A stretch of DNA of 64,000 nucleotides from Rhizobiales bacterium PAR1 (GTDB taxonomy: Bacteria; Pseudomonadota; Alphaproteobacteria; Rhizobiales; Beijerinckiaceae), in NCBI GenBank assembly GCA_002256205.1, contig NKIW01000004.1, positions 1 to 64,000 of the forward strand, read 5' to 3'. The notes beneath the pieces were generated by a model. The model was not told where the DNA came from. It ran no database searches and worked only from the letters and a program-made list of their open reading frames with translations. Shown piece after piece: positions 9,556 through 29,502 of the stretch (positions are counted from its first letter, which is position 1; each line of letters starts with the position of its first letter). A program made the position numbers and the translations under genes.

Positions 9556-9565
9556 CATCACACCG

Positions 9566-10688: not shown

Positions 10689-10748
10689 TGTCTCGCCTTT
10701 GGGCATGAAAACCAGATGGTCCGGCTGATCCACCGCGAGTGATTTTGC

Positions 10749-13458: not shown

Positions 13459-13930
13459 ACTTGGCGTCCCCGGAAAACATCCACGTCTGAATCCGGCCAC
13501 ACATCGACAAGGCGGTGGCCGTATCATCACAATCGTATCGAGATCGATGGCGACAGACGAAAGGGCAGGAATACGCCAGTCACTATTAACCTACGTCAAA
13601 GCCGCCGCGGCAGGATCCTTCTCGCTGGGACCCAAGCTGTCGGTTAGAGGACATCCAAGCGATCCGGTTTAATCCTGTTCAGCAAGCGGAATGCCCTCTG
13701 ATACTGCCGGGTGGGGACACCAAAAGCAGCGGTTAAACAAACACGGATAAAATCTGGCATCAGTACCCCGTCGATTGACAATCTTGAGCGGTGGGATATT
13801 CGTCCAAACGAACTGGATGCTGTTGGAGCGGCTTTTTTGGGCTTGTTCCGCGTGACTGCCGGGCGCACACTGGACGACATGGCATCCTTCATTTGCGCCC
13901 AATTTGGCATTGATGACTGAAATAATTCCC
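13459..13930. other. 472-bp region without a convincing gene
   Basis: No open frame here has both a good start and a recognisable family. A GTG-initiated frame (13711-13920, 69 codons) on the plus strand is not recognised. On the minus strand, about 13760-13644, the translation DFIRVCLTAAFGVPTRQYQ resembles the last helix-turn-helix of AraC-type regulators (cf. xHFxRxFxxAFGxxPxxYR), followed by a stop. It may be a remnant of a lost AraC regulator. The 3' part must hold the promoter of the GntR gene at 13931. Confidence 0.35.
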
Positions 13931-14587
13931 ATGAGCCTGACGGACACGGTCGACACGCCGGGAGGCTATAATCTCTCGAATTTGGCCTATCGCGCCGTAA
14001 CGGAAATGATCGTGACCCGTCGTCTGCGCGGCGGAGAGTTGATTGTCGAAGCACGGCTGGCTGAATTGCTCGGCATTTCTCGAACACCTTTGCGGGAAGC
14101 CCTTCAGCGACTTGAGGGTGAAGGGCTTGTCGTCAAGGCAGGCAATCGTTCCTTCATGTGCCGCAATGTCGATCTCGCGGAATATCTTCAAAGCCTCAAG
14201 GTCCGGGAAATCCTCGAAGGGGAGGCCGCTGCGCTGGCGACGAGCCATATCCCGAGGGAGCGTCTCCGAGCGGTGCGTCGGGAGATCGAGGAATTGATGG
14301 CCGCGACGAGCTACCATACGGATGCCCATTGGCGCTCTGATGATAACGTCCACGGGCTCTACATCGACGGCTGCGGCAACGCGGTCATGGGCCAGATGAT
14401 CCGATCCTTGCGCGTGACCACACGCCTTTTCGAAATTGCCCGCCTGTCAGATCGGGTTGAGCCGGATTCCCTTGAGCATCTCGATATTGTTGCCGCGTTC
14501 GAATCCGAAGATGCCAAGGCGGCTCGCAAAGCTGTCAGCGTCCATATCCGGAGCCTGACACGCTTCGCGCTGGACAAGATTTCCTGA
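13931..14587 (+). CDS. GntR/FadR-type transcriptional regulator (FCD domain), second
   Basis: This 218-residue regulator has an N-terminal winged helix with LAELLGISRTPLREALQRLEGEG (residues about 48-70) and a C-terminal FCD ligand-binding domain (KVREILEGEAAALA, HGLYIDGCGNAVM, HLDIVAAFESEDA). It is convergent with the EamA transporter gene and lies at the left edge of the oxidase/ABC cluster, so it is the best local candidate regulator of the 14.6-32.4 kb genes. The ATG at 13931 gives the usual N-terminus; the upstream 13904 frame adds non-family residues. Confidence 0.87.
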   Translation: MSLTDTVDTPGGYNLSNLAYRAVTEMIVTRRLRGGELIVEARLAELLGISRTPLREALQRLEGEGLVVKAGNRSFMCRNVDLAEYLQSLKVREILEGEAAALATSHIPRERLRAVRREIEELMAATSYHTDAHWRSDDNVHGLYIDGCGNAVMGQMIRSLRVTTRLFEIARLSDRVEPDSLEHLDIVAAFESEDAKAARKAVSVHIRSLTRFALDKIS

Positions 14588-14608: not shown

Positions 14609-15475
14609 TCAGGTCTTGGAGCGGATCAGTGCGATTCCGCTCACGATAACAATGACAGCGCCGAGTAGGGTCGCTGTGGTCGGAACTTCGCCAAAGGCCA
14701 GATAGCCGACCGCCGACGCAGAAACGATCTGGAAATAGATCATGGGCGACACGACAGCTGTCGGTGCCAGCCGGAACGCCAGGGCCAGCATCAGGTGGGC
14801 CAGCGTGCCGAAAACGCTGGCAAGCGCGAGCATGCCCCATTCATCCAGCCGCATGGTCGACCATGTCCAGGGCAAGGAGAGCGACGAGATCAGCGTTGCC
14901 GTGAGCGCGACAAAAAAGTTCATCGCCAGCGGATCTTCTTCCTGCGCGATGGATCGCGACAGAACATGGAAGGCACCGTTCGAAATGGCCAGCATCAATG
15001 GGAAAATCAGATGCGCCCCGGCGTTCGGCGCACCCGGCTGAAGCGCGACAAGCACCCCGACAAACCCGATGATGATGAGCACCCAGCGCTGCAAGGAGGG
15101 ACGTTCACGCAGAAAGATCGCTGCCAGAACGGTTGCAATCAGCGGGGCAGAAAATCCGATGGAATAGGCTTGAGCCAGCGGGATCGTCTTGAGAGCGAAA
15201 ACGATCGAGAGCGTCGTGGTGATGAGCAGAACGCCCCGAAAGACATGGACCACGGGATGACGCGTCGTGATCATGCGCCGGGCCCCCAGCAGAGGCATCA
15301 GCAGGATGAGATAGGCGAGCTGAAAGCCGTTGCGACCCCAGACAAGAAACAGCACGTCATGCGTGCGGGAAAGCACCTTCAGGATTGAATCAAGCAGGAC
15401 GAAACAAAGCGTCGCGCCGATCATCAGCAGCGCGCCTGAAACAATCGCCCGGCGCGCGGGAACCGGCGGCGGCAT
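14609..15475 (-). CDS. EamA/DMT-superfamily transporter
   Basis: This protein of about 288 residues has ten hydrophobic helices in two five-helix EamA repeats (VWGRNGFQLAYLILL; SIGFSAPLIATVLAAIFLRERPS; AFRLAPTAVVSPMIYFQIV). Members export or import amino acids, nucleosides and other metabolites. The start is set at the ATG at 15475 because a terminator hairpin lies at 15535-15568, so longer starts would overlap it. It is downstream of a binding-protein gene on the same strand but separated by that terminator. Its possible role is efflux of a metabolite from the neighbouring catabolic cluster. Confidence 0.85.
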   Translation of the reverse strand: MPPPVPARRAIVSGALLMIGATLCFVLLDSILKVLSRTHDVLFLVWGRNGFQLAYLILLMPLLGARRMITTRHPVVHVFRGVLLITTTLSIVFALKTIPLAQAYSIGFSAPLIATVLAAIFLRERPSLQRWVLIIIGFVGVLVALQPGAPNAGAHLIFPLMLAISNGAFHVLSRSIAQEEDPLAMNFFVALTATLISSLSLPWTWSTMRLDEWGMLALASVFGTLAHLMLALAFRLAPTAVVSPMIYFQIVSASAVGYLAFGEVPTTATLLGAVIVIVSGIALIRSKT

Positions 15476-15608: not shown

Positions 15609-16421
15609 TCAGAAGTAGGGCGTGAAGCCGGTCGGGTTGATCATCTTGATGCCAAACCATTTCTCCCACATCGCATCGGTCTTGCCGCGGCGATGCATCT
15701 CGAAAATCGCGACATTCAGCCAATCCTTGAGGCCCGTTGAATTCTTGGCCACGCCGAAGCTGCAGTAATAAACGTCAACCGGCGTTTCGACGACTTTCCA
15801 CTTCACGTCCTTGTGGCGGTTCATATGCTCGCCGACGAAATCGATCACGTCGATCATGGCGTCGCCGCGCCCTTGCGCCAACGCCCGTACGGCATCGGGG
15901 TAATTATCGAGCAGCGTCACCTTGGCCTGCTTGAGATTGTCTTCAATGAACTTCACCGGAGTGGTGCCACGCACCTGAACGAGATTGACGCCGGGCGCAT
16001 CGAGCTCTTTCCAACTCTTGTACGGCTTGGCTTCTGTGGTCAGCACGCCAAAGACTTCGGTATGAACCGGCACGGTAAAGTCGATCACCTTCGCCCGTTC
16101 GGGGTTTCGCGTCATGGCCCCCATGACCAGATCGATCTTGCCGGAAGCGACAAACGGAATGCGATCTGGCGAGCCAACCTGCACAATCTCGACCTTAACG
16201 CCGAGCATCTTGGCGATCTCGGTAGCAAAATCGACGTCAAAGCCGACAATTTCGTTCTTTTCGTCGAATTTTGCCAAAGGCGGCAACGTCGGGTTGACAC
16301 CAACCTTCAGCGTTCCTGATTTGAGCACCTCATCGAGTGTGCGGGCGATGGAGGGGAGCGGGGTCATCGACGCCGCGATTGTGAAGGCTGTGAGAAGGCC
16401 GAGTGCTGCTTTCCGGAGCAT
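15609..16421 (-). CDS. Amino-acid ABC importer substrate-binding protein
   Basis: This 270-residue periplasmic protein of the SBP_bac_3 family has a Sec signal peptide (residues 1-27, ending near PSIARTLD), then SGTLKVGVNPTLPPLAKFDEKNEIVGFDVDFATEIA, PFVASGKIDLVMGAMTRNPERAKVIDFTVP and a C-terminal GKTDAMWEKWFG. This is the polar-amino-acid type. It is transcribed alone, divergently from the oxidase operon. It probably supplies ligand to the permeases at 20645 and 21319, which have no adjacent binding protein of their own. Confidence 0.88.
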   Translation of the reverse strand: MLRKAALGLLTAFTIAASMTPLPSIARTLDEVLKSGTLKVGVNPTLPPLAKFDEKNEIVGFDVDFATEIAKMLGVKVEIVQVGSPDRIPFVASGKIDLVMGAMTRNPERAKVIDFTVPVHTEVFGVLTTEAKPYKSWKELDAPGVNLVQVRGTTPVKFIEDNLKQAKVTLLDNYPDAVRALAQGRGDAMIDVIDFVGEHMNRHKDVKWKVVETPVDVYYCSFGVAKNSTGLKDWLNVAIFEMHRRGKTDAMWEKWFGIKMINPTGFTPYF

Positions 16422-16746: not shown

Positions 16747-17031
16747 ATGACGGCTCAGCGCATGGCGGGGATAGGACGCGGAGCGCCAGTTTCGATTGTT
16801 GTCGACGGTTCTCCTGTTGAGGCTTTTGGTGGCGAATCGCTGGCTGCAGCCTTGCTGGCGGCGAATATCGTTCAGCTCCGGAAAAGCCCGCGTGAGGGCG
16901 GCGTTCGGGGCGCATTCTGCTTCATGGGCGTGTGTCAGGAATGTGCAATCATCGTGGATGGCACAGTGCAACAGGCCTGCCTTGTCCCGGTCCACGATGG
17001 CATGACCGTCACGTTACGCGGATCGGTCTGA
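16747..17031 (+). CDS. (2Fe-2S)-binding subunit of a HcnA-like/opine-oxidase dehydrogenase
   Basis: This 94-residue ferredoxin-like protein has the cysteine pattern C-x4-C-x2-C (CFMGVCQEC, about residues 58-66) and a fourth Cys in QQACLVPV. It corresponds to HcnA, or the small subunit of D-hydroxyproline dehydrogenases and opine oxidases. It would carry electrons from the flavin subunits towards the respiratory chain. It is followed after one base by the FAD/NAD-binding subunit and then the DadA-like subunit, the same order as in hcnABC. The same domain is the N-terminus of the fused protein at 23688-26567. Confidence 0.85.
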   Translation: MTAQRMAGIGRGAPVSIVVDGSPVEAFGGESLAAALLAANIVQLRKSPREGGVRGAFCFMGVCQECAIIVDGTVQQACLVPVHDGMTVTLRGSV

Positions 17032-17032
17032 T

Positions 17033-18475
17033 ATGGCTTTGCCTCTGGTTTTACCCTTCGATCTTGTCGTGATCGGTGCTGGCCCTGCTGGCGGTGCGGC
17101 AGCGCTGGCCGCAAGCGAAGCGGGACTGCGCGTTGTCCTGATTGACGAATCGGCGGCTCCGGGTGGGCAGGTCTACAGGGCCATGCCGGCTGGATTGTCC
17201 CATTCCGATGGCGCTCTGGGGCCGGATGAAAGGGCCGGGCAGGCTTTGCGCGAGGCGATCGCGGCCTCTTCGGTGACGTGGAAGGGTGGTGCGCGGGTCT
17301 GGTCGATTTCCGGGCGCTACCGGATTGATACGGCCTCCACTGCAGGATGCGAGAGCTTTGAAGCGCCGCGTCTCGTCGCAGCGACAGGTGCGCATGAGCG
17401 GATCGTCCCCTTCCCCGGCTGGACCTTGCCTGGCGTGATCGGCCTCGCCGGGGCGACGATCCTGATGAAATCGCAGGGCATGGTGCCCGGCCGCCGGACG
17501 CTGGTTGCAGGCTGCGGCCCCCTGTTGGCCGCTGTGGCGGCCAAGATCATCGCCGGTGGTGGGGAAGTTGCAGCGATCGTCGACCTTTCAAGCCGTGCCG
17601 ATTGGTTGAAGGCCCTTCCCGGTCTTGCTTCGCGCCCCGCCTTGCTCAAACAGGGGATCAACTGGTTTCTGGCGATCGGCATGGCGCGCGTGCCAGTGCT
17701 GTTTCGCCATACCATCGTCCGTGCTGAAGGCGAGAACGCCGTAGCATCGGTGACGGCTTCACCGGTCGATGGTAACGGCCGCCTGAGCGGCGGACCTGAG
17801 CGCACCTTCGAGGTCGATTCGCTGGCTGTCGGGCATGGGTTGGTGCCGGGCGCAGAAATTCCTCGCTTGCTGCGCTCCAAGCTGGCGTTCAGCGCGGCTT
17901 CGGGCGGCTGGATCCCGGTGCGCGACACATTTGGGCGCTGTTCCGTCGAAGGGCTTTACGCCGCAGGCGACGGGGCAGAAATCGCTGGCGCCTTGCCGGC
18001 CGCCATCACCGGCAGGTTGGCTGGACTGGCTGCCGCACGCGATTCGGGCGCGCTGGATTCTGCGCGTTTTGAAATCCTTTCGGAAGTGACACTGGCCGCC
18101 TTTCGAAAGACGCTGGCGTTCTCCGGTGCCGCGCGCGATCTGATGCGCCCTCGCCCTGCCATGATCGAGGATATCGCGCCCGATACCGTCGTCTGTCGCT
18201 GCGAGGATATCCGCCGCAGCGAAATCGAAGCGGCGATTGCGGCTGGCGCGAGCGAGGTCAACCAGCTCAAGCATTTCTCCCGGTGCGGCATGGGCCCCTG
18301 CCAGGGGCGGATGTGCGGCGATACGGTCGCGGGCCTTGTTGCCCTTCATGCCGGTTCGCGCGAAGCGGCCGGATACTGGACCGGTCGACCGCCGCTACGC
18401 CCGGTGCCGCTTTCGATGCTGCTCGGCGAGTTTGACTATTCCGATATTCCAGTGCCGGAGCCCGCTCCGCTATGA
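17033..18475 (+). CDS. HcnB-like FAD/NAD-dependent oxidoreductase with BFD-type [2Fe-2S] domain
   Basis: This 480-residue protein begins with a dinucleotide fold (LVVIGAGPAGGAAALAASEAG, about residues 12-32). It has a second NAD-type fold (PGRRTLVAGCGPLLAAVAAKI) and a C-terminal BFD-like [2Fe-2S] domain with CRCED and CGMGPCQGRMC. This is the alpha/B subunit of HCN synthase, octopine/nopaline oxidase and D-hydroxyproline dehydrogenase complexes. Its end overlaps the start of the next gene by four bases. The complex is probably membrane-associated and feeds electrons to quinone or cytochrome, as known for family members. Confidence 0.88.
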   Translation: MALPLVLPFDLVVIGAGPAGGAAALAASEAGLRVVLIDESAAPGGQVYRAMPAGLSHSDGALGPDERAGQALREAIAASSVTWKGGARVWSISGRYRIDTASTAGCESFEAPRLVAATGAHERIVPFPGWTLPGVIGLAGATILMKSQGMVPGRRTLVAGCGPLLAAVAAKIIAGGGEVAAIVDLSSRADWLKALPGLASRPALLKQGINWFLAIGMARVPVLFRHTIVRAEGENAVASVTASPVDGNGRLSGGPERTFEVDSLAVGHGLVPGAEIPRLLRSKLAFSAASGGWIPVRDTFGRCSVEGLYAAGDGAEIAGALPAAITGRLAGLAAARDSGALDSARFEILSEVTLAAFRKTLAFSGAARDLMRPRPAMIEDIAPDTVVCRCEDIRRSEIEAAIAAGASEVNQLKHFSRCGMGPCQGRMCGDTVAGLVALHAGSREAAGYWTGRPPLRPVPLSMLLGEFDYSDIPVPEPAPL

Positions 18476-19653
18476 AACCGGCTTATGATCTCGGCATTGT
18501 CGGCGGAGGGGTCCACGGCGCAACGGTCGCGCTGTTCTGTGCCCGCGCCGGGTTGAAAACGGTGCTGTTCGAGCGCGGAAGCCTGTGCCGTGAGGCATCC
18601 GGCGTCAATGCCGGTACGCTGACGATGCAGATGACGCGGGTGGCGCTCATCCCCTACGCGCTCCAAGCCCATGCGATGTGGGCCTCGGCGCGCGAATGGC
18701 TCGGGCATGATGTCGGCGTTGTTGTGTGCGACGGGCTCTCGCTCGCCTTCACTGAGCGCGAGGCCGAGCTTCTGACCTTCCGGGCGGGCAAGCGCCGCGA
18801 GGCTGGCGCACCGATTTCGATCATCTCGCCTTCCGAGGCCATGGCGGTCGAGCCGGGCCTCTCAGAGAAGGTGCTCTGCGCCGGGCATTGCAAGGTCGAC
18901 GGCTATGCCAATGCCTATCTGACCGGCCTCGCCTTCCGCCGTGCCTTGCTTGAAGCCGGAGTCGACCTCAGGGAACAGACGCCGGTGAGCGGGATTTCGC
19001 GCGAGGAACAGGGCTTCGGCGTGGCCACTGCGCAAGAGACTGTCCCGGTCAAACGTCTGGTTCTGGCGGGCGGCGTCTGGCTCGAAGACATGATGGCCTG
19101 GTTCGGGCTGCATCTGCCGATCAAGGTCCTGATCAATCAGCTCGCCGTCACAGAGCGTATCCGGCCAGTGATGCGGACGGTGGTTGGGATTGCGAGCGGC
19201 CTTCTGTCGCTCAAACAATATCCGCACGGCACCGTGGTCATCGGTGGCGGCTGGCAGGGCGTTGGGGACCGCAAGCGGGGCGGCGTTGAACTCCTGCCGG
19301 AGAACCTCGTCGGCAACATGCGGCTAGCCTGCCATGCCATTCCAGCCCTGAAGGAAGCCCGGCTTGCGCGTGCCTGGGCAGGCCTTGAGGCTGAAACGCG
19401 CGATGCGTTGCCTGCTGCCGGGCCGATCCCCGGCATTCCCGACGCCTATATCTGCGGCAGCGTCCATTCCGGCTACACCAGCGGTCCCTACATCGCGAAA
19501 TTGCTCGCGGATCGCATCCTGGAACGCGAACCGATCGATCCCCTGTTTCCCATTGACCGCCTGCTCGCGCCACAAGACGCGGCGCAAGCCACACGCCCCC
19601 TTTCCACCCATCCTGAGCTGGCAGGCGCCGATGAAACCCCGCACTCTCTCTGA
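18472..19653 (+). CDS. HcnC/DadA-like FAD amine oxidoreductase subunit
   Basis: This 393-residue D-amino-acid-oxidase-fold flavoprotein has the N-terminal FAD motif LGIVGGGVHGATVALFCARAG, the DAO-type LSLKQYPHGTVVIGGGWQG block, and RAWAGLEAETRDALPAAGPIPG followed by GYTSGPYIAKLLAD near the C-terminus. It is the catalytic (C/beta) subunit that oxidises a C-N bond of glycine, an opine, D-hydroxyproline or sarcosine-like substrates in related complexes. It overlaps the downstream DapA-family gene by 23 bases. Substrate specificity cannot be read from motifs. Confidence 0.87.
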   Translation: MKPAYDLGIVGGGVHGATVALFCARAGLKTVLFERGSLCREASGVNAGTLTMQMTRVALIPYALQAHAMWASAREWLGHDVGVVVCDGLSLAFTEREAELLTFRAGKRREAGAPISIISPSEAMAVEPGLSEKVLCAGHCKVDGYANAYLTGLAFRRALLEAGVDLREQTPVSGISREEQGFGVATAQETVPVKRLVLAGGVWLEDMMAWFGLHLPIKVLINQLAVTERIRPVMRTVVGIASGLLSLKQYPHGTVVIGGGWQGVGDRKRGGVELLPENLVGNMRLACHAIPALKEARLARAWAGLEAETRDALPAAGPIPGIPDAYICGSVHSGYTSGPYIAKLLADRILEREPIDPLFPIDRLLAPQDAAQATRPLSTHPELAGADETPHSL

Positions 19654-20617
19654 AGCACCGAGCCCCCATTCGCGCGTAGAGGCCGCCATCCGGCGTCTCA
19701 CCGGCATTCATGCTGCGACCATCTGCCCGATGCGACCAGATTTCAGCGTCGACGAGGCCGCTCTTGCTGCGCATGTCGGCATGGTCGGTACCGCCGATGG
19801 CATCGAGGGGCTACTGATCAACGGACATGCGGGCGAGAATTTTCTGCTTTCGCGCGAGGAAAAGCGGCGCGTGATCGAGATCTGTCGCTCGGTTCTGGGA
19901 CCGAATGCCTTTCTGACGAGTGGCGTGAATGCAGAATCAAGCCTCGACGCTGCCGTGCATGCGGCGGATGCCGAAGCGGCGGGTGCGGATGCGATCCTGC
20001 TCTTCCCGCCCAACGCCTGGGGTCTGTTTCAGGATGAGGATTCCGCTTTCCTCCATCACCAGCACGTGATGGCTGGCTGTGGCTTGCCGCTGATGCTCTA
20101 TCAGGCGCCCGTGCGCGCCGGCACCATGCCCTATTCCACGGATATTCTCGCACGCCTCGTCGCCCTGCCCCGCGTTGCCGGAATCAAGGAAGGGAGCTGG
20201 GAGGTCGCGACCTATGACGAGAACCGCCGCGTGGCCAAGGCGCTCCGGCCTGAACTTGCCGTGCTTGGTTCCGGCGATGAGCACCTTCTGACCAGCTATC
20301 TCATCGGCTCGGAAGGCAGTCAGGTCAGCCTTGCTGCGGTGACACCCGCACCAGTTGTTGCGCTCTGGCGTGCGGCACAAGCGGGCGACTGGGCGGCGGC
20401 ACGGCATTGGCATGATGTGATCTATCCGCTGGCGGGCGCGATTTATCGGCAGGCACCGGGCGGGCGGGCGACGCCACGGCTCAAAGCCTGTCTGAAAATC
20501 CTCGGGCACCTCGAATGCGATACGGTACGCCCGCCTTTTGCCCCCTTGCCGGTGGAGGAATACCGCAGGCTGGAGCGTGCGCTGATCCAAGTCCAGAATG
20601 CCGGTTCGCCATCATGA
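19631..20617 (+). CDS. DapA-family (dihydrodipicolinate synthase/NAL) lyase, first
   Basis: This 328-residue class I aldolase-fold enzyme shows the Schiff-base lysine in GIKEGSWE and the upstream tyrosine in PLMLYQAPV. Besides DHDPS the family includes N-acetylneuraminate lyase, 4-hydroxy-2-oxoglutarate aldolase and delta1-pyrroline-4-hydroxy-2-carboxylate deaminase; the last acts directly after D-hydroxyproline dehydrogenase. The ATG at 19631 lies inside the preceding gene, which indicates coupling to the oxidase. A second, divergent homologue (26564-27481) is coupled to the fused oxidase. A role on the oxidase product is inferred. Confidence 0.85.
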   Translation: MKPRTLSEAPSPHSRVEAAIRRLTGIHAATICPMRPDFSVDEAALAAHVGMVGTADGIEGLLINGHAGENFLLSREEKRRVIEICRSVLGPNAFLTSGVNAESSLDAAVHAADAEAAGADAILLFPPNAWGLFQDEDSAFLHHQHVMAGCGLPLMLYQAPVRAGTMPYSTDILARLVALPRVAGIKEGSWEVATYDENRRVAKALRPELAVLGSGDEHLLTSYLIGSEGSQVSLAAVTPAPVVALWRAAQAGDWAAARHWHDVIYPLAGAIYRQAPGGRATPRLKACLKILGHLECDTVRPPFAPLPVEEYRRLERALIQVQNAGSPS

Positions 20618-20644
20618 TGCGTCACAGAATCGGACTGGCCTGAG

Positions 20645-21319
20645 ATGTCCTACACGCTTCAATTCGGACAGGTGACACCCTACCTCGGCTATCTCGCCGG
20701 TGGGGCCTGGCTGGCGCTGCAACTCGCGGCGATTGCCTTCGTTCTCGGCTGGGCCATTGGGCTCGGATGCGCGTCGACGCTCCATTACGGGCCACGCTGG
20801 GCGCGCTGGCCGATCCGCGCCTACGTGGTGTTCTTCCTCAACACCCCGCTGCTGGTGCAGATCTTCTTCCTGTATTTTGCCTTGCCGGATTGGGGCATCC
20901 TTCTGGGCTCCTTTCAGGCGGTTGTGCTCGGAATGTCGCTCAACGCAGGCGCTTATCTCACGGAGATCCAGCGGGCAGGCTTCAATTCAATCCGTCAGGC
21001 CGAGGTTGAGGCCGCCGAAACGCTCGGGTTCACGCGGGTGCAATCCATCCGCTACGTCGTGCTGCCGCATATCCTGAAGGTGCTGTTTCCGCCGCTTTCG
21101 AACCAGTACATCATCCTGACTATGACCACCTCCATCGCCGCGATTTTCGGCGTTGAGGAACTCACCGGGCGCACCTACAACATCAACGCGCAGACCTTCC
21201 GCTCGCTTGAGATCTTTTCCATCGCCGCGCTCTATTATGTCGTGCTGACACTGATCGCGAGTGCGGCCCTCTACGCCGTCGGCCGCTACTTCTTCCGGAT
21301 CAAGAGGAGCCCGTTCTGA
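20645..21319 (+). CDS. Amino-acid ABC importer permease 1 (HisM/GlnP type)
   Basis: This 224-residue permease has the His/Glu/Gln/Arg/opine family signature: GGAWLALQLAAIAFVLGW at the N-terminus, RAYVVFFLNTPLLVQIFF and the EAA loop EAAETLGFTRVQSIRYVVLPHILKVLFPPLSNQ. It has five or six membrane segments. Its stop and the next gene's start share a base (TGATG). The family name includes opine transporters, in keeping with the neighbouring opine-oxidase-like enzymes. Confidence 0.9.
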   Translation: MSYTLQFGQVTPYLGYLAGGAWLALQLAAIAFVLGWAIGLGCASTLHYGPRWARWPIRAYVVFFLNTPLLVQIFFLYFALPDWGILLGSFQAVVLGMSLNAGAYLTEIQRAGFNSIRQAEVEAAETLGFTRVQSIRYVVLPHILKVLFPPLSNQYIILTMTTSIAAIFGVEELTGRTYNINAQTFRSLEIFSIAALYYVVLTLIASAALYAVGRYFFRIKRSPF

Positions 21320-22005
21320 TGGCCGCCCTGATCGAGGAAGCCGGACGCTTCTACTCCTATTACAATCTCATCTATCTTGGAAAAGCGTTCCTTTTCACAA
21401 TCCTGCTGTCGTTTGCCGGCTGCGGGATCGGTTTCGTGCTGGGCGCGGGCCTTGCGGTCATGCGTCATCCCCGCATTGTCTCTTTTGCCCCGCTGCGCTG
21501 GTTCGCGCTGCTCTATGTCGAGCTGTTCCGGCGCATCCCCTTCCTCGTTCTGCTGATGGTGGTGTTCTTCGCGTTCCAGCTTGCAGGCGCGGATGTGACG
21601 ATGTTCACGGTGGCCGCAACTACCGTGGCGCTCTCTGCTTCGGCCTTTTCGGCGGAGAATGTGCGGGCGGGCCTCGAATCCATACATCCCAACCAGTGGG
21701 ATGCCGCCGAGGCGATGAACATGGGCGGGCTGACGGCCCTGCGCCGCGTGGTGTTGCCGCAATCCTGGCGCGTCATCATCCCGCCGTCGATGACCTATTC
21801 GGTGGGGCTGGTGAAGGCGACCTCAATCGCCTCGCAGATCGGCGTTCTCGAACTCACCTATGCCGCCAAGATCCTCAACCAGAAGGGATTTTCCGCTGCA
21901 CTCTGCTTCGGGACCATCCTCGTTCTCTATTTCTGCCTTTGCTACCCACTCAATCTTTTCGCGACCTCCCTGGAGAAGCGGCTTGCCCCATCTCGCAATC
22001 GATAA
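21319..22005 (+). CDS. Amino-acid ABC importer permease 2
   Basis: This 228-residue partner permease has the motif LYVELFRRIPFLVLLMVVFF and the EAA loop DAAEAMNMGGLTALRRVVLPQSWRVIIPP. It forms a heterodimer with the preceding gene product. It overlaps the ATPase gene by 23 bases. Confidence 0.9.
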   Translation: MAALIEEAGRFYSYYNLIYLGKAFLFTILLSFAGCGIGFVLGAGLAVMRHPRIVSFAPLRWFALLYVELFRRIPFLVLLMVVFFAFQLAGADVTMFTVAATTVALSASAFSAENVRAGLESIHPNQWDAAEAMNMGGLTALRRVVLPQSWRVIIPPSMTYSVGLVKATSIASQIGVLELTYAAKILNQKGFSAALCFGTILVLYFCLCYPLNLFATSLEKRLAPSRNR

Positions 22006-22720
22006 CCTCAACGCCGATTATGGCGCGACACCCATCCTCCGGGATGTCGATCTTTCCGTAGAGCGCGGCGAAATTGTCGCGATCATCGGGCCGTCCGGCT
22101 CGGGAAAAAGCACCCTGTTGCGTGTGCTGACGGGCCTCCTCAAACCGCGCTCCGGCAGGGTCGAGATCGCTGGCGAGGTTGTGAATTACACCAGCGCAGC
22201 CGCGCTGCGGAAGGTGAGGGACCGCTTCGCTATCGTGTTCCAGCAGTACAACCTTTTCCAGAACATGACGGCGCTGCGCAACGTGACCATCGCACCCACC
22301 ATCGTGAAGAAGCGCAATGCCGCCGAAGTCGAGCGTGAGGCCCGAGCGCTGCTGGAAAAAGTCGGTCTCTCGCATCGCATCGACGCTTATCCGGATGAGA
22401 TGTCCGGTGGTCAGCAACAGCGTGTGGCGATTGCGCGTGCGCTGGCCCTGAAGCCCGAGATCCTGCTGCTCGACGAGGTGACCTCTGCGCTCGATCCCGA
22501 GCTTGTAGCCGAAGTGCTCGATACCATCCGAACGCTCGCCTCGGAGGGCATGACGATGCTGATCGTCAGCCACGAGATGGCCTTCGTGCGCGAAGTGGCG
22601 ACCAAGGTCGTTTTCATGGCCGATGGGCGGATCGTCGAAGTCGGGCCACCCGCCCAGATTTTCGACGCCCCTCAGACCGAACGCTGTGCGGAATTCGTCA
22701 GGCGCATCCTGCGTCACTAA
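21983..22720 (+). CDS. Amino-acid ABC importer ATPase (HisP/GlnQ type)
   Basis: This 245-residue ATPase has Walker A GPSGSGKST, Q-loop VFQQYNLFQNMTAL, signature MSGGQQQRVAIARAL, Walker B ILLLDEVTSALD and the H-loop VSHEMAFVREVA typical of amino-acid importers. No ATG is available at the right place; the TTG at 21983, preceded by TGGAGAAG, gives the family-like N-terminus PHLAIDNLNADYG. It may also energise the permease at 29567, which has no ATPase of its own. Confidence 0.88.
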   Translation: MPHLAIDNLNADYGATPILRDVDLSVERGEIVAIIGPSGSGKSTLLRVLTGLLKPRSGRVEIAGEVVNYTSAAALRKVRDRFAIVFQQYNLFQNMTALRNVTIAPTIVKKRNAAEVEREARALLEKVGLSHRIDAYPDEMSGGQQQRVAIARALALKPEILLLDEVTSALDPELVAEVLDTIRTLASEGMTMLIVSHEMAFVREVATKVVFMADGRIVEVGPPAQIFDAPQTERCAEFVRRILRH

Positions 22721-22731
22721 ACGACCGGAGA

Positions 22732-23628
22732 ATGGCCATGTACGGAATGCAGCTTCTCAAAGGCGCGGTGGATTGCCATGTGCACAGCTGCCCTCATCTC
22801 AACGGTCGCAGCGTTTCTGTGCTGGAATCGGTGCGGCAAGCCGCTGCCGCGGGCATGCGCGCCGTCGGCCTCATGGACAATTTTCAGAACTCTTCGGGCT
22901 ATGCGGCGCTTGCAATGGCCGAACTCGGTCAACTCGGCGTCGCGGTCTTTGGCGGGCTGATCATGCAGCCGACAGCAGGCGGGGTCAGCTATGAAGCGGC
23001 CAGAAACGCAGTCGACTATGGCTATGGCCCCGGAACCGGTGCGCGTTTCATTTCGCTGCCAACGCATCACACCCGCGCGGTAGCCTTGGCCGAGGGTCGC
23101 AGCCCGGCCTTTCTGGAAACGACCTTTTCTGTGCCATCCAGCGGCAAGGTGCCGGACCCTGTCCCCGCGATTATGGCGCTCTGCGCCGAGCGCGACATCG
23201 TTTTCGATTGCGGGCATGTCGACGGGCCGGAAGCCGTTGCGCTTGCCGAGGAGGCCAAACGGAAGGGGGTGACGCGTCTGCGAACCCATGCTGGTGCCTA
23301 TGCCGAGGATTCCATCCGCGAGATTGTCGCGCTCGGCGGGTATTGTGAATTCTCGTTCTTCCAGCTCAGCCACGCGACGCAGGTTGGCCTGACCCATGTC
23401 GACCGCGAAAAGCACAAGGCGGCGGGCATGACGATTGACGACATGGCGCCGCGCATTCGCGCGGCGGGCGATCGGGCGATCGTTTCGGGTGACGCGGGGG
23501 TGTTCCTGCTGGCCCCGCCGGTGGAATCGTTCCGCCAGTTCATGGTGCTGCTGGAAGCCGCGGGCTTTTCGGAGAGCGATATCCGCCGCATGAACACGAC
23601 AAATCCTGTCGCGCTGTTCGGCCTCTGA
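22732..23628 (+). CDS. DUF6282-family metal-dependent hydrolase-like protein
   Basis: This 298-residue protein is of the amidohydrolase-like type I recognise as DUF6282. It has an N-terminal DCHVHSCPH (HxH metal site, about residues 14-22), central SLPTHH, FDCGHVDGPEAV and LRTHAG histidines, and a late VSGDAG aspartate. This set is consistent with a TIM-barrel metallohydrolase. It lies 11 bases after the ABC ATPase and ends the operon. The reaction is unknown; lactone, imide or cyclic amide hydrolysis would suit the context, but this is only inference. Confidence 0.72.
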   Translation: MAMYGMQLLKGAVDCHVHSCPHLNGRSVSVLESVRQAAAAGMRAVGLMDNFQNSSGYAALAMAELGQLGVAVFGGLIMQPTAGGVSYEAARNAVDYGYGPGTGARFISLPTHHTRAVALAEGRSPAFLETTFSVPSSGKVPDPVPAIMALCAERDIVFDCGHVDGPEAVALAEEAKRKGVTRLRTHAGAYAEDSIREIVALGGYCEFSFFQLSHATQVGLTHVDREKHKAAGMTIDDMAPRIRAAGDRAIVSGDAGVFLLAPPVESFRQFMVLLEAAGFSESDIRRMNTTNPVALFGL

Positions 23629-23687
23629 TCCAGGCTATCCAGTCGCGGGTCATGGAGCGCAGCGATATGCGGTTCTCCGCGCCAGCT

Positions 23688-26567
23688 TCAGCCAAATCGC
23701 TCGATCAGGAACGGCGATAAGTCTCGGCCGGGATCGTCTCCGTTGACCAACGCCGCCGTCATTTGTCCCATCAATGGGCCGAGCGTGTAACCGTTCGACG
23801 TCACGCAATTAAAGAAACCGGGCGCGGTGGGATGTTCGCCGAGGATCGGAGCGCCATCGATATTGATGTTCATCGCCGCCCAACTCCGGAGCACATGGAG
23901 ACGGCGCAGCGCCGGCACCACATGCTGGGCGACCCAGAGATTACCCTCGATGCTGGCGAGCTGCGGTCGCGGATGGCCATGGATCGGATCAAGCCCGGCA
24001 GTCCACCCCCCACCGATGATGAAATTGCCGTTGGCTGCCTGCTTCAACGTCAGGTGTCGGTCGGCGTGAGCGACCAGCCGGGAGATCAGCGGCTCGGCAG
24101 GTTCGGTGACGATCATCTGCAACGGCGCGCCAAACACCGGCACGGCCAGATTGAGCATCGCGCCGATGCGGGACGCAAAACCGCCCGCCGCATTCACCAG
24201 ACGGCCGGCGACAAGATCACCCCGGTTGGTCACAAGGCGGAATCCCGCCCCAGCTCGCTCAAGGGCGATCACCTGCGCGCCCGTGAAGACCCGCGCGCCA
24301 GCCGCCAGCGCAGCGGTATAGAGCCCTTGCGTCGCCACCAGCGGATTGATCTTGCCTTCCTGCGGGCAGAAGGCCGCGCCGACAAACCGCTCGTCCAGCG
24401 CCGGTTCGAGCCGCCGCAGATCGGCGCGCGAAATAACCGAGCAATCGATACCTTGCGCGCGCTCCACCGCCGTTTTGGCCTCGATGAAGCGTAAATGCGC
24501 CTCGCTCTCGGCCACCATCAGACCGCCTGAGATCGAAATCTCGAAATCCGCCGCCAGTTCTTGTTCCAGCGTACGCCACAGGGCGATCGAGGCTAGCTGG
24601 AGAGGGAGCGTTCGTGCCGCCGGACCGCCGCCCGCTTCGGCCTTGGAGCCGTGATCGAACGACAGCAGTTGCGCGTGCAGGCTTCCGGCATTGCCGCCGG
24701 ATGCGCCGCTGTTGACCGCATTGCGATCCAGCACCACCACATCGTGCCCGGCGCGGGCTAGAAACAGCGCCGTGCTCAGTCCTGCCACACCCGCCCCGAT
24801 AATCACGGTCTGCGCCTGTTTGACGGGCAACGCTTCTGCCTCAGGCGATGTCCATGCCGGCAGGTTGGCGCGGCGATGACCGCCCCATTCCGCCTTTTCA
24901 ATCGCGAGCGCGGCAAGCGGCACAGGCCTCACCGGTATTTGCGGCGCGGGAAGTGCACGCTCCTGTGCTGGTGCGCCTGTAAGCGTTCGCAAGGACTGCG
25001 CACAATAGCGCCCCTGGCATCTCCCCATTCCCGCGCGCGTCAGGCGTTTGAGCGCACTGGCGTCCCGAACGCCAAATCGTGTGACGGTGTCGGCCAAGGT
25101 TGCGCGCGAGACGGCCTCGCACCGGCACGCCAAGGCGTTTGCCGCTGAAGGCAATTTCGAAGCGTCCGCCTCAAAAAGAGACCACAGGTTGCGCTGAAAC
25201 CGGCGATGCCGCGCCAGCGCCCGCCGCGCGGCATCCGCTCCGGGATTAGGCTGAAAGCCCAGTTTTTCTGCCGCCGCGAGACCCGCCAGCGCCCCCATCG
25301 CGCCAGCGATATGTGCGCCGCCAAAGCCACCGGCCTCACCCACAACGAACACGTCGGGCTGCTCCGTGGCGCCATCATCCCCGCGTTCGATACGAAGTTC
25401 GCCGCGAACATCCGTGGTGAACGGCAATCCCAGCAGGCGCGCAAGATCGGCCGCAGGTGCAAAGCCGTCGCTGGCGCAGATGATGTCGCAGACGATCCGC
25501 TCGCTGACACCGCGTTGGCTGACCATCGCCGCGGTACAACCTTCCTGCCCCTCGACGGCAATCAGCCGCGCGTTGAAGCGGACCTGTGCGCCGGACTTCC
25601 TGAGTGCTGCGAGATCGCGCAAGCCCTGAAGCGTCAGCGCCGGGTCCGCCAGAGCGAGACGCAGGGCGGCTATCGGTCTCGTCCATGGCGCGGGCGCAGC
25701 CTCAACGACAGTAACTTCACACCCGGCTTCAGCCAGTTCACGCGCCACCTGAAGGTTGAGCGGTCCATTGCCGGCGAGTACCACCCGGCGACCGGGAACA
25801 ACCCCATAGCTGCGCCAGAGTGTTTGCGCGGCGCCCGGCGTCATCACGCCCGGCATGGTCCAACCGGGAACAACGGTGGGTTGCTCATAGGCACCGGTCG
25901 CGATGATCAAAGCCCGTGGTCGAATGATCGACGCCTGCCCATGCGCATAAATCGATAGCAACAAGGCCCCCGCTTCGCCGCGTTCGACACCGAACACCAG
26001 CGTTTCCCATTCCAGCACAACACCGCTGGCGCGAACCGCCGCAATCAGTTCCGCCCCTGCCGCCATCTGCCCATCGGGCGCAGGTGCAGCAGCGCTCGCG
26101 GCTTGCTTGAAATACTGTCCACCCGCGAGGGAGCGCTCATCCATCAACAGCACCTGCGCACCCGATTGCGCTGCGGCCAATGCGGCGCGCAAACCCGCTG
26201 GCCCCGCCCCGACCACGAGCACATCCGTCTGGCGAATGGGCATGGGGCCAGTCGGCAAAGTGGCGAGATCGGCCTGCGCCTCATCAAGCCGGACCTTGCC
26301 GGTGTGCTGGGCGCGCACCTGCATCCCATCCGCCACCTTGGTCATGCACGCGCGAACGCCAGCGCGACCGTCGACCGTCACGAGGCAATCGTGGCACACG
26401 CCCATGCCGCAGTAATGACCGCGCGCCGCGCCATCCTTGCCGACGCCCTGCGCCAGAATGCCATGTGCAATCAGGGTAGCGGCGATGCTTTCGCCCGCAA
26501 CCGCCTGCAAGCGCTGGCCGTCAAACGTCAGGGTGAGCTGCGCGTGGCGCCTGTCAGCCAAGATCAA
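23688..26567 (-). CDS. Single-chain fusion of HcnA-, HcnB- and DadA-like dehydrogenase subunits
   Basis: This 959-residue protein contains in order a 2Fe-2S ferredoxin domain (residues about 1-90, CGMGVCHDC), an HcnB-like FAD/NAD oxidoreductase (about 112-430, VLVVGAGPAGLRAALAAAQSG), a BFD-type [2Fe-2S] domain (CRCEAV ... GMGRCQGRYC, about 465-515), and a DadA/HcnC-like oxidase (about 578-959, VIIGAGVAGLSTALFLARAG ... FIIGGGWTAGLD). This is the same set as the three genes at 16747-19653, joined in one chain. The start is a TTG overlapping the stop of the DapA-like gene (TTGA). It probably oxidises a secondary amine or D-amino acid; the substrate may differ from that of the split complex. Confidence 0.87.
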   Translation of the reverse strand: MILADRRHAQLTLTFDGQRLQAVAGESIAATLIAHGILAQGVGKDGAARGHYCGMGVCHDCLVTVDGRAGVRACMTKVADGMQVRAQHTGKVRLDEAQADLATLPTGPMPIRQTDVLVVGAGPAGLRAALAAAQSGAQVLLMDERSLAGGQYFKQAASAAAPAPDGQMAAGAELIAAVRASGVVLEWETLVFGVERGEAGALLLSIYAHGQASIIRPRALIIATGAYEQPTVVPGWTMPGVMTPGAAQTLWRSYGVVPGRRVVLAGNGPLNLQVARELAEAGCEVTVVEAAPAPWTRPIAALRLALADPALTLQGLRDLAALRKSGAQVRFNARLIAVEGQEGCTAAMVSQRGVSERIVCDIICASDGFAPAADLARLLGLPFTTDVRGELRIERGDDGATEQPDVFVVGEAGGFGGAHIAGAMGALAGLAAAEKLGFQPNPGADAARRALARHRRFQRNLWSLFEADASKLPSAANALACRCEAVSRATLADTVTRFGVRDASALKRLTRAGMGRCQGRYCAQSLRTLTGAPAQERALPAPQIPVRPVPLAALAIEKAEWGGHRRANLPAWTSPEAEALPVKQAQTVIIGAGVAGLSTALFLARAGHDVVVLDRNAVNSGASGGNAGSLHAQLLSFDHGSKAEAGGGPAARTLPLQLASIALWRTLEQELAADFEISISGGLMVAESEAHLRFIEAKTAVERAQGIDCSVISRADLRRLEPALDERFVGAAFCPQEGKINPLVATQGLYTAALAAGARVFTGAQVIALERAGAGFRLVTNRGDLVAGRLVNAAGGFASRIGAMLNLAVPVFGAPLQMIVTEPAEPLISRLVAHADRHLTLKQAANGNFIIGGGWTAGLDPIHGHPRPQLASIEGNLWVAQHVVPALRRLHVLRSWAAMNINIDGAPILGEHPTAPGFFNCVTSNGYTLGPLMGQMTAALVNGDDPGRDLSPFLIERFG

Positions 26568-27481
26568 GCCTCGGTCCCAAGGTCAAACTTCAGCCCAAAA
26601 TGCTTCACCAGCGCAGCCATGCGGGCATCCCGCTCGGCCGGCAATGGCAGACGCGGAGGCTGGGGAATGCCGGCAGGAAAACCCATATGGTTCAAAAGCG
26701 CTTTGGTTCCACCGACGTAATATTGCCCGAAAACCGCTTCGATGATCGGCAGCCAGTGCAGATAGAGATCACGCGCCTCAAAGACCTTGCCTTCATCAGC
26801 GACCAGTTCGAACAGCCGCGCCATGGGTCCGGGGGCAACATTCGACGCCACAGCCACCCAGCCCTGCGCGCCATCGACAAAGGATTCAAACCCCAGAATG
26901 CCGCCGAAAACCGTCATGTTGTCGCCGCACAGCCGGATGATGTCGCGCACCCGTGTTACTTCCAGTGTCGACTCCTTGATGTAGTCGCAGCCCTTGATTT
27001 CGGCGATGCGCGCAACCAGTTCCGGCTTGAGATCGACGTTCGACGTCGCGGGATTGTTATAGACCATGATCGGGATGGTGATGGCCTCGGCGACGGCGCG
27101 ATAATGCTGCACAAGCTCATCATCCGTCGGCGTCGAATAGAACGGCGGAATGATCATGACGCCATCGGCGCCCAGCTTTTCCGCGCGCCGGCTCAACCGA
27201 ACCACCTGCCGCGTATCTTCCGCGCCGGTTCCTATCAACACGGGAACCCGGCCCGCCGCCTGCTGGATCACGATATCAGCAACCTGATGGAGCTGATCAT
27301 CGGATTGTGAGAGGAACTCGCCGGTCGAACCAAGCGGGATCAGCCCATGAATACCCTGACGGATCTGCCATTCGGTCAGGTCCGCCAACGCCTTGGTGTT
27401 GACGGCGCCATCGGCGTCAAACGGCGTGATCATCACGGTGTAGGTACCGCGAAACGGCTTCTTGCTCTTGATCCGGGTCAT
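26564..27481 (-). CDS. DapA-family lyase, second
   Basis: This 305-residue DHDPS/NAL-family protein has the pyruvate-type motif GSTGEFLSQSD, the tyrosine in PIMVYNNPATSNVD and the Schiff-base lysine in YIKEST. It resembles the branch that includes 2-keto-acid aldolases and pyrroline-hydroxycarboxylate deaminase more than biosynthetic DapA. It is co-transcribed with the fused oxidase (overlapping) and the phosphotriesterase-like gene (36-base gap). It probably handles the imine or keto product of that oxidase. Confidence 0.86.
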   Translation of the reverse strand: MTRIKSKKPFRGTYTVMITPFDADGAVNTKALADLTEWQIRQGIHGLIPLGSTGEFLSQSDDQLHQVADIVIQQAAGRVPVLIGTGAEDTRQVVRLSRRAEKLGADGVMIIPPFYSTPTDDELVQHYRAVAEAITIPIMVYNNPATSNVDLKPELVARIAEIKGCDYIKESTLEVTRVRDIIRLCGDNMTVFGGILGFESFVDGAQGWVAVASNVAPGPMARLFELVADEGKVFEARDLYLHWLPIIEAVFGQYYVGGTKALLNHMGFPAGIPQPPRLPLPAERDARMAALVKHFGLKFDLGTEA

Positions 27482-27517: not shown

Positions 27518-28546
27518 TCATAGAGGGCGCGCGAGCAGACGCCTCGGCGTTTCAATCAAGAGCCGGTCAATCTCGCCTTGCGTAAAGCCGCGTTCAATCA
27601 TCAGCGGTGCGACATTGCGCAAAAGGTGGCCATAGCCGTGGCCCCCGAGAGTTTGGAGCCGTGACCGGGTACAGATGTCATGTGACACAACAACGCGGTC
27701 CGCCAGACCGGCATCAAATAGTCTGCGGATGCAGCGCAAACGCATCCAGTCCGTCGGAAGATCAGCGACACCCATCCAGTATTTCGACGTCTCGATGCCA
27801 AAAAAATCGAATTCCACGACACACCCACGCCGTGCCAGTGCAACGATTTCGCCGTCGTCTTCATAGGTGCGATCCATATGGTCGATGATGACGCGGGAGA
27901 TATCCGCACCGGCCTTGTCCAGAATGGTCAGAATATCGTGCGGCGCCTGCGGATGCCGGCCGGGATGAACTGTGATCGCAGCGCCCGTCTGTCTTTGGGC
28001 GCGCGCGCCAGCCTGCAATGAGCGGTTCTCGAACGGGGTCAGCGGCCAGGAGCAACCGATCTCGCCGATGATACCGCATCGAACAGCGGTGCCGCGCGCT
28101 CCGACCGACAACTCCTCGACAATGACTTCCGTCAGCGCTTCTACTGGCAGTGAAAGCGTTTCGGGGTCGAGATAAGGCTCGGTGTAATAGCCCGCAGAGG
28201 CAATGACATGAACACCCGTGGCGCGCGAAATCCGCGCCAGCCCCTCCAGATCGGGTGCGATCCCCGCCGTCGTCATCTCAACGATCGTGCCACCGCCCTG
28301 CTGCGCAAACAGCGTGACTTCCCGCGCAGCAAGCGCCTCGTCCGCCAGCCGGTGATTGCCAAAAAACTCTCCCGGCCGATAGTTCACGTCGAAGGCGTTT
28401 TCGAGCGTGATCTCGACAGCCGGTTCTCCGCTCCCCCGACGTGCGAGCGGGGTCAGATCGCACAGGATGTGCTCGTGCATCAGCACCGCGCCAAGGGCGT
28501 CGGGTGCGACAGGTCCCAGCACAGTCATGACCTTGGGTTCAGACAT
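27518..28546 (-). CDS. Phosphotriesterase-related (Php-like) metallohydrolase
   Basis: This 342-residue amidohydrolase-superfamily protein has the HEH metal site in LMHEHILCDLTPLA, a glutamate in GIIGEIGCSWPLT where classic phosphotriesterases have the carboxylated lysine (as in E. coli Php), ITVHPGRHP, IIDHMDRTYEDDG and the final VVSHDICTRSRL aspartate. Family members are lactonases or amidases more often than phosphotriesterases. The ATG at 28546 is preferred to the longer frame, which crosses the divergent promoter region. It is first in the minus operon with the DapA-like and fused oxidase genes. Confidence 0.84.
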   Translation of the reverse strand: MSEPKVMTVLGPVAPDALGAVLMHEHILCDLTPLARRGSGEPAVEITLENAFDVNYRPGEFFGNHRLADEALAAREVTLFAQQGGGTIVEMTTAGIAPDLEGLARISRATGVHVIASAGYYTEPYLDPETLSLPVEALTEVIVEELSVGARGTAVRCGIIGEIGCSWPLTPFENRSLQAGARAQRQTGAAITVHPGRHPQAPHDILTILDKAGADISRVIIDHMDRTYEDDGEIVALARRGCVVEFDFFGIETSKYWMGVADLPTDWMRLRCIRRLFDAGLADRVVVSHDICTRSRLQTLGGHGYGHLLRNVAPLMIERGFTQGEIDRLLIETPRRLLARPL

Positions 28547-28641: not shown

Positions 28642-29502
28642 ATGACAATCGACAAGACCAAACTCCCGACGACGCTTGATCGCCGCGCCGTGCTCGCCGG
28701 CGCTGCCACGACCCTGCTGTTCGGCGCGAGCGCGGCAAAGGCGCAGGCGAAATTGTCCACGCCCAACATCATCAAGACGGGCACATTGGTGATGTCGATC
28801 AACCCGACACTGCCGCCGCTGCAGTTTGTTGACGACAAGGGCGAGCTGAAGGGCATGCGGGTCGAACTTGGCAACGAAATCGCCAAGGTTCTGGGCCTGA
28901 CGCCGGAATACATCCGCATCGAATTCGCGGCCATGGTGCCGGGCCTCGCAGCGAAGCGCTGGGACATGATCAACACGGGCATCTTCTGGACCGAAGAACG
29001 CTCCAAGCTGATGTATATGGTGCCTTATGAGCGGGCGGCGATCAGTTTCCTCGCTGCGCGCGGCAACCCGCTGAAGATCGCGAAATGGGAAGATCTGTCC
29101 GGGCGCGCCGTGGGCGTCGAACTGGGCGGCATTGAAGAACGCCGCACCCGCGAAGTCGATGACATGCTCAAAAAGGCCGGCAAGCCGGGCCTGACCGTGC
29201 GCACCTTCAACAACTTCGCCGAGGCATTCCAGGCGCTGCGCGCCGGGCAGGTCGACGCGGCGACGTCCATCGACGCGACGGCGATGTACTGGCAAGGACG
29301 CGGAGACTTCACCCGCGCAATTTCCGGTCTGTTCCCGCAGGTCGCGACCTTCGCCTTCTCGAACAAGACTTTGGCAACAGAAGTGGTTGGCGCCCTGAAT
29401 AGCCTCAGGGGATCTGGCTACTACGATAAGCTCTTCGACCAGTTTGGCGTCCTCAAGATTGAGGAGAAGGAATTCTCGATCATGGGGCCTGGCCCAGCCT
29501 GA
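28642..29502 (+). CDS. Amino-acid-type ABC substrate-binding protein with Tat-like signal
   Basis: This 286-residue SBP_bac_3 protein has a twin-arginine-like signal (DRRAVLAGAATTLLFG, cleavage after about SAAKAQ). The mature region has TLVMSINPTLPPLQFVDDKGELKG and LRAGQVDAATSIDATAMYW. It is related to the protein at 15609 (shared INPTLPPL-F segment) but exported by a different route. It heads the plus operon with a permease, an aspartate-dehydrogenase-like protein and an M20 protein. The ATG at 28642 is used; an upstream frame from 28594 would overlap the operator. Confidence 0.86.
   Translation: MTIDKTKLPTTLDRRAVLAGAATTLLFGASAAKAQAKLSTPNIIKTGTLVMSINPTLPPLQFVDDKGELKGMRVELGNEIAKVLGLTPEYIRIEFAAMVPGLAAKRWDMINTGIFWTEERSKLMYMVPYERAAISFLAARGNPLKIAKWEDLSGRAVGVELGGIEERRTREVDDMLKKAGKPGLTVRTFNNFAEAFQALRAGQVDAATSIDATAMYWQGRGDFTRAISGLFPQVATFAFSNKTLATEVVGALNSLRGSGYYDKLFDQFGVLKIEEKEFSIMGPGPA

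Follow-up and report, generated by a model that had tools for sequence, protein, structure and literature searches.

Introduction

Heteromeric dye-linked flavin dehydrogenases are alpha4beta4gamma4 enzymes with two flavin adenine dinucleotides (FAD), one flavin mononucleotide (FMN), and [2Fe-2S], and their known substrates are nopaline, octopine, or D-hydroxyproline (PMC4575208). Few substrates are known for these heterotrimers, and purification of the opine enzymes was difficult for a long time (PMC4575208). Here we analyzed a stretch of 64,000 nucleotides from Rhizobiales bacterium PAR1 (Beijerinckiaceae; contig NKIW01000004.1), termed the window, in which an enzyme of this type is encoded twice, by three genes and by one gene for a single chain. 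The two versions have separate ancestries, each is coupled to its own DapA-family gene, and their relatives co-occur in genomes of the same family more often than expected by chance. In the literature searched, with most subscription journals outside it, neither a single-chain form nor such a pairing was described.

Results and Discussion

One enzyme type as three genes and as a single chain

The three-gene (split) set lies on the forward strand. It consists of a gamma subunit, a [2Fe-2S] protein (16747..17031; PF13510, Fer2_4; Cx4Cx2Cx11C), an alpha subunit combining an FAD domain (Pyr_redox_2) with a BFD-type Fe-S domain (Fer2_BFD) (17033..18475; PF07992, PF04324; GxGxxG, CxC...Cx4C), and a catalytic beta subunit, a DAO-fold FAD protein (18472..19653; PF01266; GxGxxG, RAW). 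On the reverse strand, a gene with a TTG start (23688..26567) encodes a gamma-alpha-beta fusion of 959 residues, compared with 967 for the three split subunits together. Its Pfam domains, Fer2_4 (residues 8-87), Pyr_redox_2 (114-424), Fer2_BFD (480-526), and DAO (587-939), follow the order of the split genes gamma, alpha, and beta. Open reading frames and Pfam thus agree with an earlier sequence-only reading of this DNA, which described three coupled genes at 16747-19653 and one 959-residue chain with the same domains in the same order.

The cofactor motifs are alike in the two versions. Both gamma parts carry the [2Fe-2S] motif Cx4Cx2Cx11-12C, both alpha parts carry a second cysteine motif, CxC...Cx4C, and GxGxxG occurs in the alpha and beta flavin domains and Arg-X-Trp (RxW) in beta; the putative FMN motifs are also intact in both. 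The inner spacing of CxC...Cx4C is >30, versus the 15-20 written in PMC4575208. Among 61 aligned fusions (a set excluding L053 and L079, whose match ranges contained stops on translation; L, G, and C numbers denote loci, genomes, and contigs), C53 was present in 98%, C58, C61, and C74 in 100%, and CxC...Cx4C in 100%, so that the eight Fe-S cysteines were 98-100% conserved. The FAD and Fe-S residues, whose loss the sequence-only reading had named as a sign against it, are therefore retained, with no such motif lost in either set.

An AlphaFold model of the fusion (56 sequences) had a mean predicted local distance difference test score of 90.4 and a predicted template modelling score of 0.90. 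The first part of the fusion matched PDB sequences of L-proline dehydrogenase alpha and sarcosine oxidase alpha, and the last part matched glycine oxidase, sarcosine oxidase beta, and L-proline dehydrogenase beta. The same chains led the fold matches of the model, with sarcosine oxidase alpha and L-proline dehydrogenase alpha first; the VIA-align rows on the model covered residues 579-958 almost exclusively. The fusion scored well below the NCBIfam cut-offs for SoxA (TIGR01372, 132 vs 1164 bits) and SoxB (TIGR01373, 135 vs 529 bits). The split set has the "three separate subunits" by which heteromeric dye-linked flavin dehydrogenases are recognized, and the fusion does not. Judging by its domains and motifs, the fusion represents a known enzyme type, that of the heterotrimeric dye-linked dehydrogenases, in single-chain form.

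Each version is coupled to its own DapA-family lyase gene, as the sequence-only reading had stated. The lyase of the split module (DapA-s, 19631..20617, forward strand; PF00701, E 1.3e-36) has a frame open from 19364 and, by codon scoring, a likelier start near 19631, with which the overlap between beta and DapA-s is 23 bases. The lyase of the fusion module (DapA-f, 26564..27481, reverse strand; PF00701, E 2e-62) shares the four bases TTGA of its stop with the fusion start. The lysine of GIKEGS in DapA-s, which we take to be the Schiff-base lysine, aligned with that of YIKEST in DapA-f.

The two copies are not the only sets in the genome. In a BFD-domain search of the PAR1 genome, eight matches exceeded the cut-off: the fusion and the split set, three more split sets (C24, C16, and C1), and three matches on C23, in two longer frames, which were taken for other enzymes. 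The claim that the complex is present twice is correct in that both copies are real, but the genome holds five sets of this type. The three additional sets had other neighbors: by eye, the C24 set (L093) lies beside a RidA-like gene and the C1 set (L095) near an aminotransferase and an aldehyde dehydrogenase, while the C16 set is L094.

Separate ancestry of the fusion and the split set

To compare the two versions, trees were built with 31 of the 61 fusion sequences, and without hydrogen cyanide (HCN) synthase, the heterotrimeric D-hydroxyproline dehydrogenase (D-HypDH), and Bradyrhizobium japonicum OdhB2 (type-2 opine dehydrogenase). In the beta tree, the fusions (all 31; 99/99) and the split betas (all 13; 100/99) each formed a clade of their own. 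This tree had several long end branches, and the tool warned of long-branch joins, including that of the L122/L123 split betas with the fusions. In the alpha tree, the split set formed one clade (100/100), the fusions formed another with four gamma-alpha-fused relatives (100/100), and a 100/98 branch excluded the octopine and nopaline enzymes Oox and Nox from both; the matching branch of the beta tree (94/81) was not starred and involved long branches. The C1 and C16 sets fell outside the fusion and split clades. The C24 set was grouped with Oox by the alpha tree and with C1 and C16 by the beta tree. Neither version thus fell within a characterized family on trees of this composition, in line with the sequence-only reading.

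That reading had also raised the possibility that the fusion arose by duplication of its neighbor, with domain trees as the means to decide. Identities between fusion and split set were only 41% for gamma, 33% for alpha, and 30% for beta. The low identities, together with trees that assign fusions and split sets to different clades, each represented in other genera, rule out an origin by local duplication. The fusion is old and occurs across many genera.

Gamma-alpha-fused pairs with beta as a separate gene, their fusion state judged by length and match, were found on plasmids of Paracoccus, Roseicitreum, and Antarctobacter (L124, L125, and L127). The beta tree showed these pairs as the sister group of the fusions (94/80), but three gamma-alpha-fused pairs were nested inside the fusions with weak support (86/77) in the alpha tree, so a later fission is possible. 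The plasmid pairs may plausibly represent either a half-way stage or such a fission. All three stretches contain DapA-family genes. A 3-hydroxyacyl-CoA-dehydrogenase-like gene and an IclR regulator adjoin in all three as well.

Conserved coupling and co-occurrence of the two modules

Relatives of the fusion were surveyed on bacterial genome contigs, and 80 of 115 confirmed relatives were kept, many of whose loci end at contig ends. Among these 80, the best segments were 45-67% identical to the fusion, and the hosts, by record title, were mostly Alphaproteobacteria, with some Burkholderiales and one Desulfovibrio. A DapA-f relative (at least 40% identity) was present in 78 of the 80 loci, at a distance of ≤600 bp in 72 (52 on the same strand and 20 on the opposite strand).

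The split set and its own DapA gene form a second conserved module. We examined stretches from 12 of the 13 other split-bearing genomes of the family sample described below (L112-L123). Ten of them had the split set with DapA-s next to beta and the same importer, and split beta was 72-80% identical in nine of the 12. The remaining two, L122 and L123, were remote (beta 41%), and DapA-s was not next to beta. Outside the family, all four loci examined (L135-L138) had the split set and DapA-s, and three (L136-L138) also had the importer, the fourth being only 5.3 kb long. A class-III aminotransferase-like gene (by eye) lies between beta and DapA-s in L135 and L136.

Co-occurrence was analyzed in a family sample of 149 genomes, with split alpha as the search query and cut-offs of our choosing (E ≤1e-90 for split alpha and E ≤1e-150 for the fusion); the genome searches scored only a small number of top candidates per genome (10, 5, 2, or 4). 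Split alpha relatives were found in 14 genomes and fusion relatives in 16. Nine genomes had both, compared with about 1.5 expected, while five had the split set only, seven the fusion only, and 128 had neither; Fisher's test, with kinship ignored, gave p 2.3e-7, and 1.4e-6 when the PAR1 genome was left out. Counted by genus, with both required within one genome, eight genera had both, three the split set only, five the fusion only, and 27 neither (n = 43, p 0.001).

The modules were also physically close in several genomes. G069 and G121 are congeneric, and in each the split and fusion sets lie head to tail with both DapA genes (L115 and L116), with the fusion of L115 ending at the contig end. 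The split and fusion sets of G025 lie about 9 kb apart. In Phreatobacter (L078), split gamma, part of alpha (about 50%), and the importer share a stretch with the fusion, and in L064 the split-module importer and DUF6282 genes adjoin the fusion, with no split set before the contig ends.

Neighboring genes and genomic setting

A GntR/FCD regulator (13913..14587, forward strand; PF00392 and PF07729) is of a type seen with both modules, with copies (at least 40% identity) in 66 of the 80 fusion loci and nine of the 12 split loci; these nine are among the ten with the conserved split module, and the remaining one, L118, spans just 5.7 kb. A DMT/EamA transporter (14609..15475, reverse strand; PF00892) is an occasional partner, found in two of the 12 split loci (L112 and L117). 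The split module has an amino-acid-type solute-binding protein (15609..16421, reverse strand; PF00497), copies of which were 49-91% identical in 10 of the 12 split loci. On the forward strand follow two amino-acid ATP-binding cassette (ABC) permeases (20645..21319, PF00528, and 21319..22005, with a homologue adjoining each split set in L112-L121), an ABC ATPase (21983..22720; PF00005, scanned from 21860), and a DUF6282 amidohydrolase-like protein (22732..23628; PF19799, with PF01979 under the cut-off). The DUF6282 gene was present in six of the 12 split loci and two of the 80 fusion loci.

Upstream of DapA-f lies a gene for a phosphotriesterase-family (PTE) amidohydrolase (27518..28546, reverse strand; PF02126), found in 19 of the 80 fusion loci and four of the 12 split loci. 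Its product is very near PDB 9efa (306 bits), an entry named Phosphotriesterase-related protein, from which name we infer that 9efa is the PTER of PMC11374699 and PMC13311154. Mammalian PTER hydrolyses N-acetyltaurine and N-acetyl-beta-alanine (PMC11374699, PMC13311154). By column counting, the residues matching mouse PTER E169, R204, and R233 are conserved and a Cys takes the place of H300, which is suggestive only. The fusion module continues on the forward strand with an amino-acid-type solute-binding protein (28642..29502; PF00497; 72 of the 80 fusion loci), an amino-acid ABC permease (29567..30280; PF00528; 70 of 80), an aspartate-dehydrogenase-like protein (30270..31094; PF01958 and PF03447; eight of 80), and an M20 (ArgE/DapE-type) deacylase (31091..32368; PF01546; 27 of 80). 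Compared with PDB entries, both solute-binding proteins resembled general amino-acid binders, with no specific ligand indicated. In L078, L064, L067, and L121, an ornithine-cyclodeaminase-like gene (by eye) lies beside the M20 gene or the fusion, and the equivalent slot in the window is taken by the aspartate-dehydrogenase-like gene.

With queries drawn from two of the 80 fusion loci, hydantoinase-like genes were detected in 43 of these loci, five of the 12 split loci, and two of the four loci from other families, and a DUF3830 gene in 60 of the 80 fusion loci. The hydantoinase-like protein was closest to D-hydantoinases of known structure. No papers on DUF6282 or DUF3830 were found in the literature searched.

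The two DapA-family proteins were only 23% identical to each other, and DapA-f and DapA-s were 30% and 21% identical, respectively, to the DapA-family protein near the epimerase-family (proline-racemase-family) gene on C8. These low identities suggest that DapA-f and DapA-s are likely two further lyase specificities. Against the TIGR00674 cut-off of 206 bits, DapA-f scored just under (199) and DapA-s scored 99. Another DapA-family gene of the genome, on C18, scored 296 bits to PF00701.

The region is an accessory catabolic island abutting a tRNA-Gln(ttg) gene (32733-32807). A folate gene located near tRNA-Gln was detected in all 11 genomes of the genus. All six other same-genus stretches analyzed keep the folate genes, tRNA-Pro, and tRNA-Gln, but the genes beyond tRNA-Gln are unlike those of the window, which marks a variable site (32733-33083). 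The window starts at the contig start, so the other end of the island is off the contig, and no second copy of the tRNA-Gln end was present in the window (≤4 mismatches over 25 bases). At 8532-13458, a PuuE-like polysaccharide-deacetylase gene (by eye) is accompanied by an ABC importer; relatives 58-69% identical to these genes come after the split module in L121, and the genes may belong to the same pathway as that module. A consensus scan gave 4 promoters vs 4.3 in shuffled sequences and 20 terminators vs 15.2, and was not used.

Proposed function and alternative explanations

The sequence-only reading proposed that the two versions process two related amine substrates or two stereoisomers. 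From the family co-occurrence and the common neighbors, the best reading is still that of two parallel catabolic modules, each acting on one of a related pair of amino or imino acids or on one of two isomers, to which we give about an even chance. Each module would import its substrate through its own amino-acid-type ABC importer. The PTER-like, M20, and DUF6282 hydrolases, often joined in relatives by a hydantoinase-like enzyme and DUF3830, would release the amino or imino acid from a precursor that is cyclic or N-acylated; the presence of these genes suggests that amide bonds or rings are opened ahead of amine oxidation. The dye-type FAD/FMN/2Fe-2S dehydrogenase, a heterotrimer in one module and, in the other, a single chain in which these three parts were fused long ago, would then oxidize the amino or imino acid at the DAO-fold site. 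Electrons would run through FMN, the Fe-S centers, and the second FAD toward the respiratory chain, a path that would be the same within one chain given the likeness to known heterotrimers and the fold and sequence matches. Finally, a DapA-family Schiff-base enzyme would cleave, dehydrate, or deaminate the 2-oxo or imino acid.

The catalytic domains are compatible with this scheme. KQ...GGxW is common to the beta domains of the fusion and split clades, while Oox and Nox have RQ and no GGxW; fusion betas have an extra loop after the ASG-NAG motif that split betas lack. The shared signature and the extra loop would fit related, non-identical substrates. A more specific version would be a hitherto undescribed two-branch pathway for two related amino acids that are cyclic or N-acylated. 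A single-chain FAD/FMN/2x[2Fe-2S] amine dehydrogenase would act in it alongside its heterotrimeric relative, and each would supply a dedicated new DapA-superfamily lyase; this is a tentative proposal with a limited chance of being right.

Several observations weigh against two modules working in parallel. Only one of the 80 fusion loci (L078) contains a split alpha of this type with at least 40% identity, and that gene is cut off by the end of the locus. In five of the nine genomes with both modules (G002, G004, G014, G086, and G101), the two sit on separate contigs or a long way from each other. Among 385 genomes from 276 genera sampled across the class and searched with split beta, the fusion was found in three genomes and split beta in eight, with both only in the PAR1 genome; the pairing, which recurs in some related genera, is therefore mainly a trait of one family. 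The nearest PAR1 hydantoinase-like gene (66%) and DUF3830 gene lie outside the window, on C5, and the C24 set has KQ and GGGY, so the KQ/GGxW signature is not exclusive. Finally, all five same-genus genomes of the family sample lacked both modules at the cut-offs used, so island co-transfer could explain part of the co-occurrence. As a side observation, the C5 hydantoinase-like homologue (L134, 9265-11385) adjoins a hydantoin racemase-like gene (by eye).

In the strongest alternative, the modules would be functionally unrelated and share an accessory island as mobile catabolic cassettes. The junction at tRNA-Gln with other genes in six congeners, the absence of both modules from the five same-genus genomes, and the uniqueness of PAR1 in the class-wide sample all favor it. 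Nevertheless, co-occurrence in the family exceeded chance about as 9 to 1.5, L115 and L116 carry both sets and both DapA genes head to tail, and the same GntR type, hydantoinase-like genes, and PTE genes were seen with both modules, and we consider this explanation rather unlikely. Serial action of both enzymes on one substrate, either at two amine positions or on substrate and product, would fit the same head-to-tail order, but the window and L120 have separate importer genes for each module, and the modules also occur singly in the family (5/149 and 7/149); it is accordingly a less probable alternative, and an unlikely one.

That one or both enzymes are D-hydroxyproline or opine dehydrogenases of known types is improbable: the architecture is the same, Oox and Nox are heterotrimers of this kind, and the importer type and DapA neighbors resemble hydroxyproline clusters, but the only proline-racemase-family gene of the genome is on C8, near another DapA to which DapA-f and DapA-s have the low identities given above, and the alpha tree, which contained neither type-2 opine dehydrogenase nor heterotrimeric D-HypDH, places Oox and Nox apart from both clades. 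Annotated hydroxyproline clusters share the layout of GntR, amino-acid ABC, DapA, and FAD dehydrogenase genes seen here, and the four plasmid clusters examined had a one-gene FAD enzyme. HypD labels in these comparisons were given by neighborhood only (HypD of L133 is 23% identical to that of L132), with the C8 gene and L132 as the only yardstick. D-hydroxyproline, octopine, and nopaline, candidates in or close to those of the sequence-only reading (D-hydroxyproline and opines), are thus unlikely substrates for the two modules. Sarcosine and D-amino acids, which that reading also named, are still candidate substrates.

The recurrent pairing with two uncharacterized DapA-family lyases and amide hydrolases points to a catabolic pathway. 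The natural single-chain form, present in many rhizobia and their relatives, offers one polypeptide to purify and solve.

Comparison with known systems

The closest described relatives are the heterotrimers of opine dehydrogenase (OpnDH), D-HypDH, and HCN synthase (PMC4575208), which have the same gamma 2Fe-2S protein, alpha subunit with FAD and Fe-S, and DAO-fold FAD beta subunit; the Arg-X-Trp motif and amino-acid ABC neighbors are also common to that family and the modules described here. Compared to Oox and Nox, the fusion is one chain and both clades stand apart, and the neighbors are DapA and hydrolase genes instead of the ornithine cyclodeaminase at Oox and Nox. For PDB 7fgp, an opine dehydrogenase, no paper was found in the literature searched. 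Heterotetrameric sarcosine oxidase and archaeal L-proline dehydrogenase (1vrq, 2gag, and 1y56) resemble the fusion in having Fer2 and FAD in one chain and a DAO-fold beta, but their beta is a separate chain. Similarly, only gamma and alpha are fused in the plasmid pairs of L124, L125, and L127, with beta separate, unlike the fusion here. The B. japonicum OdhB1-C-A-B2 cluster (PMC4575208) likewise has two diverged catalytic versions side by side; its two betas share alpha and gamma, whereas in the PAR1 locus each version is complete and one of them is fused.

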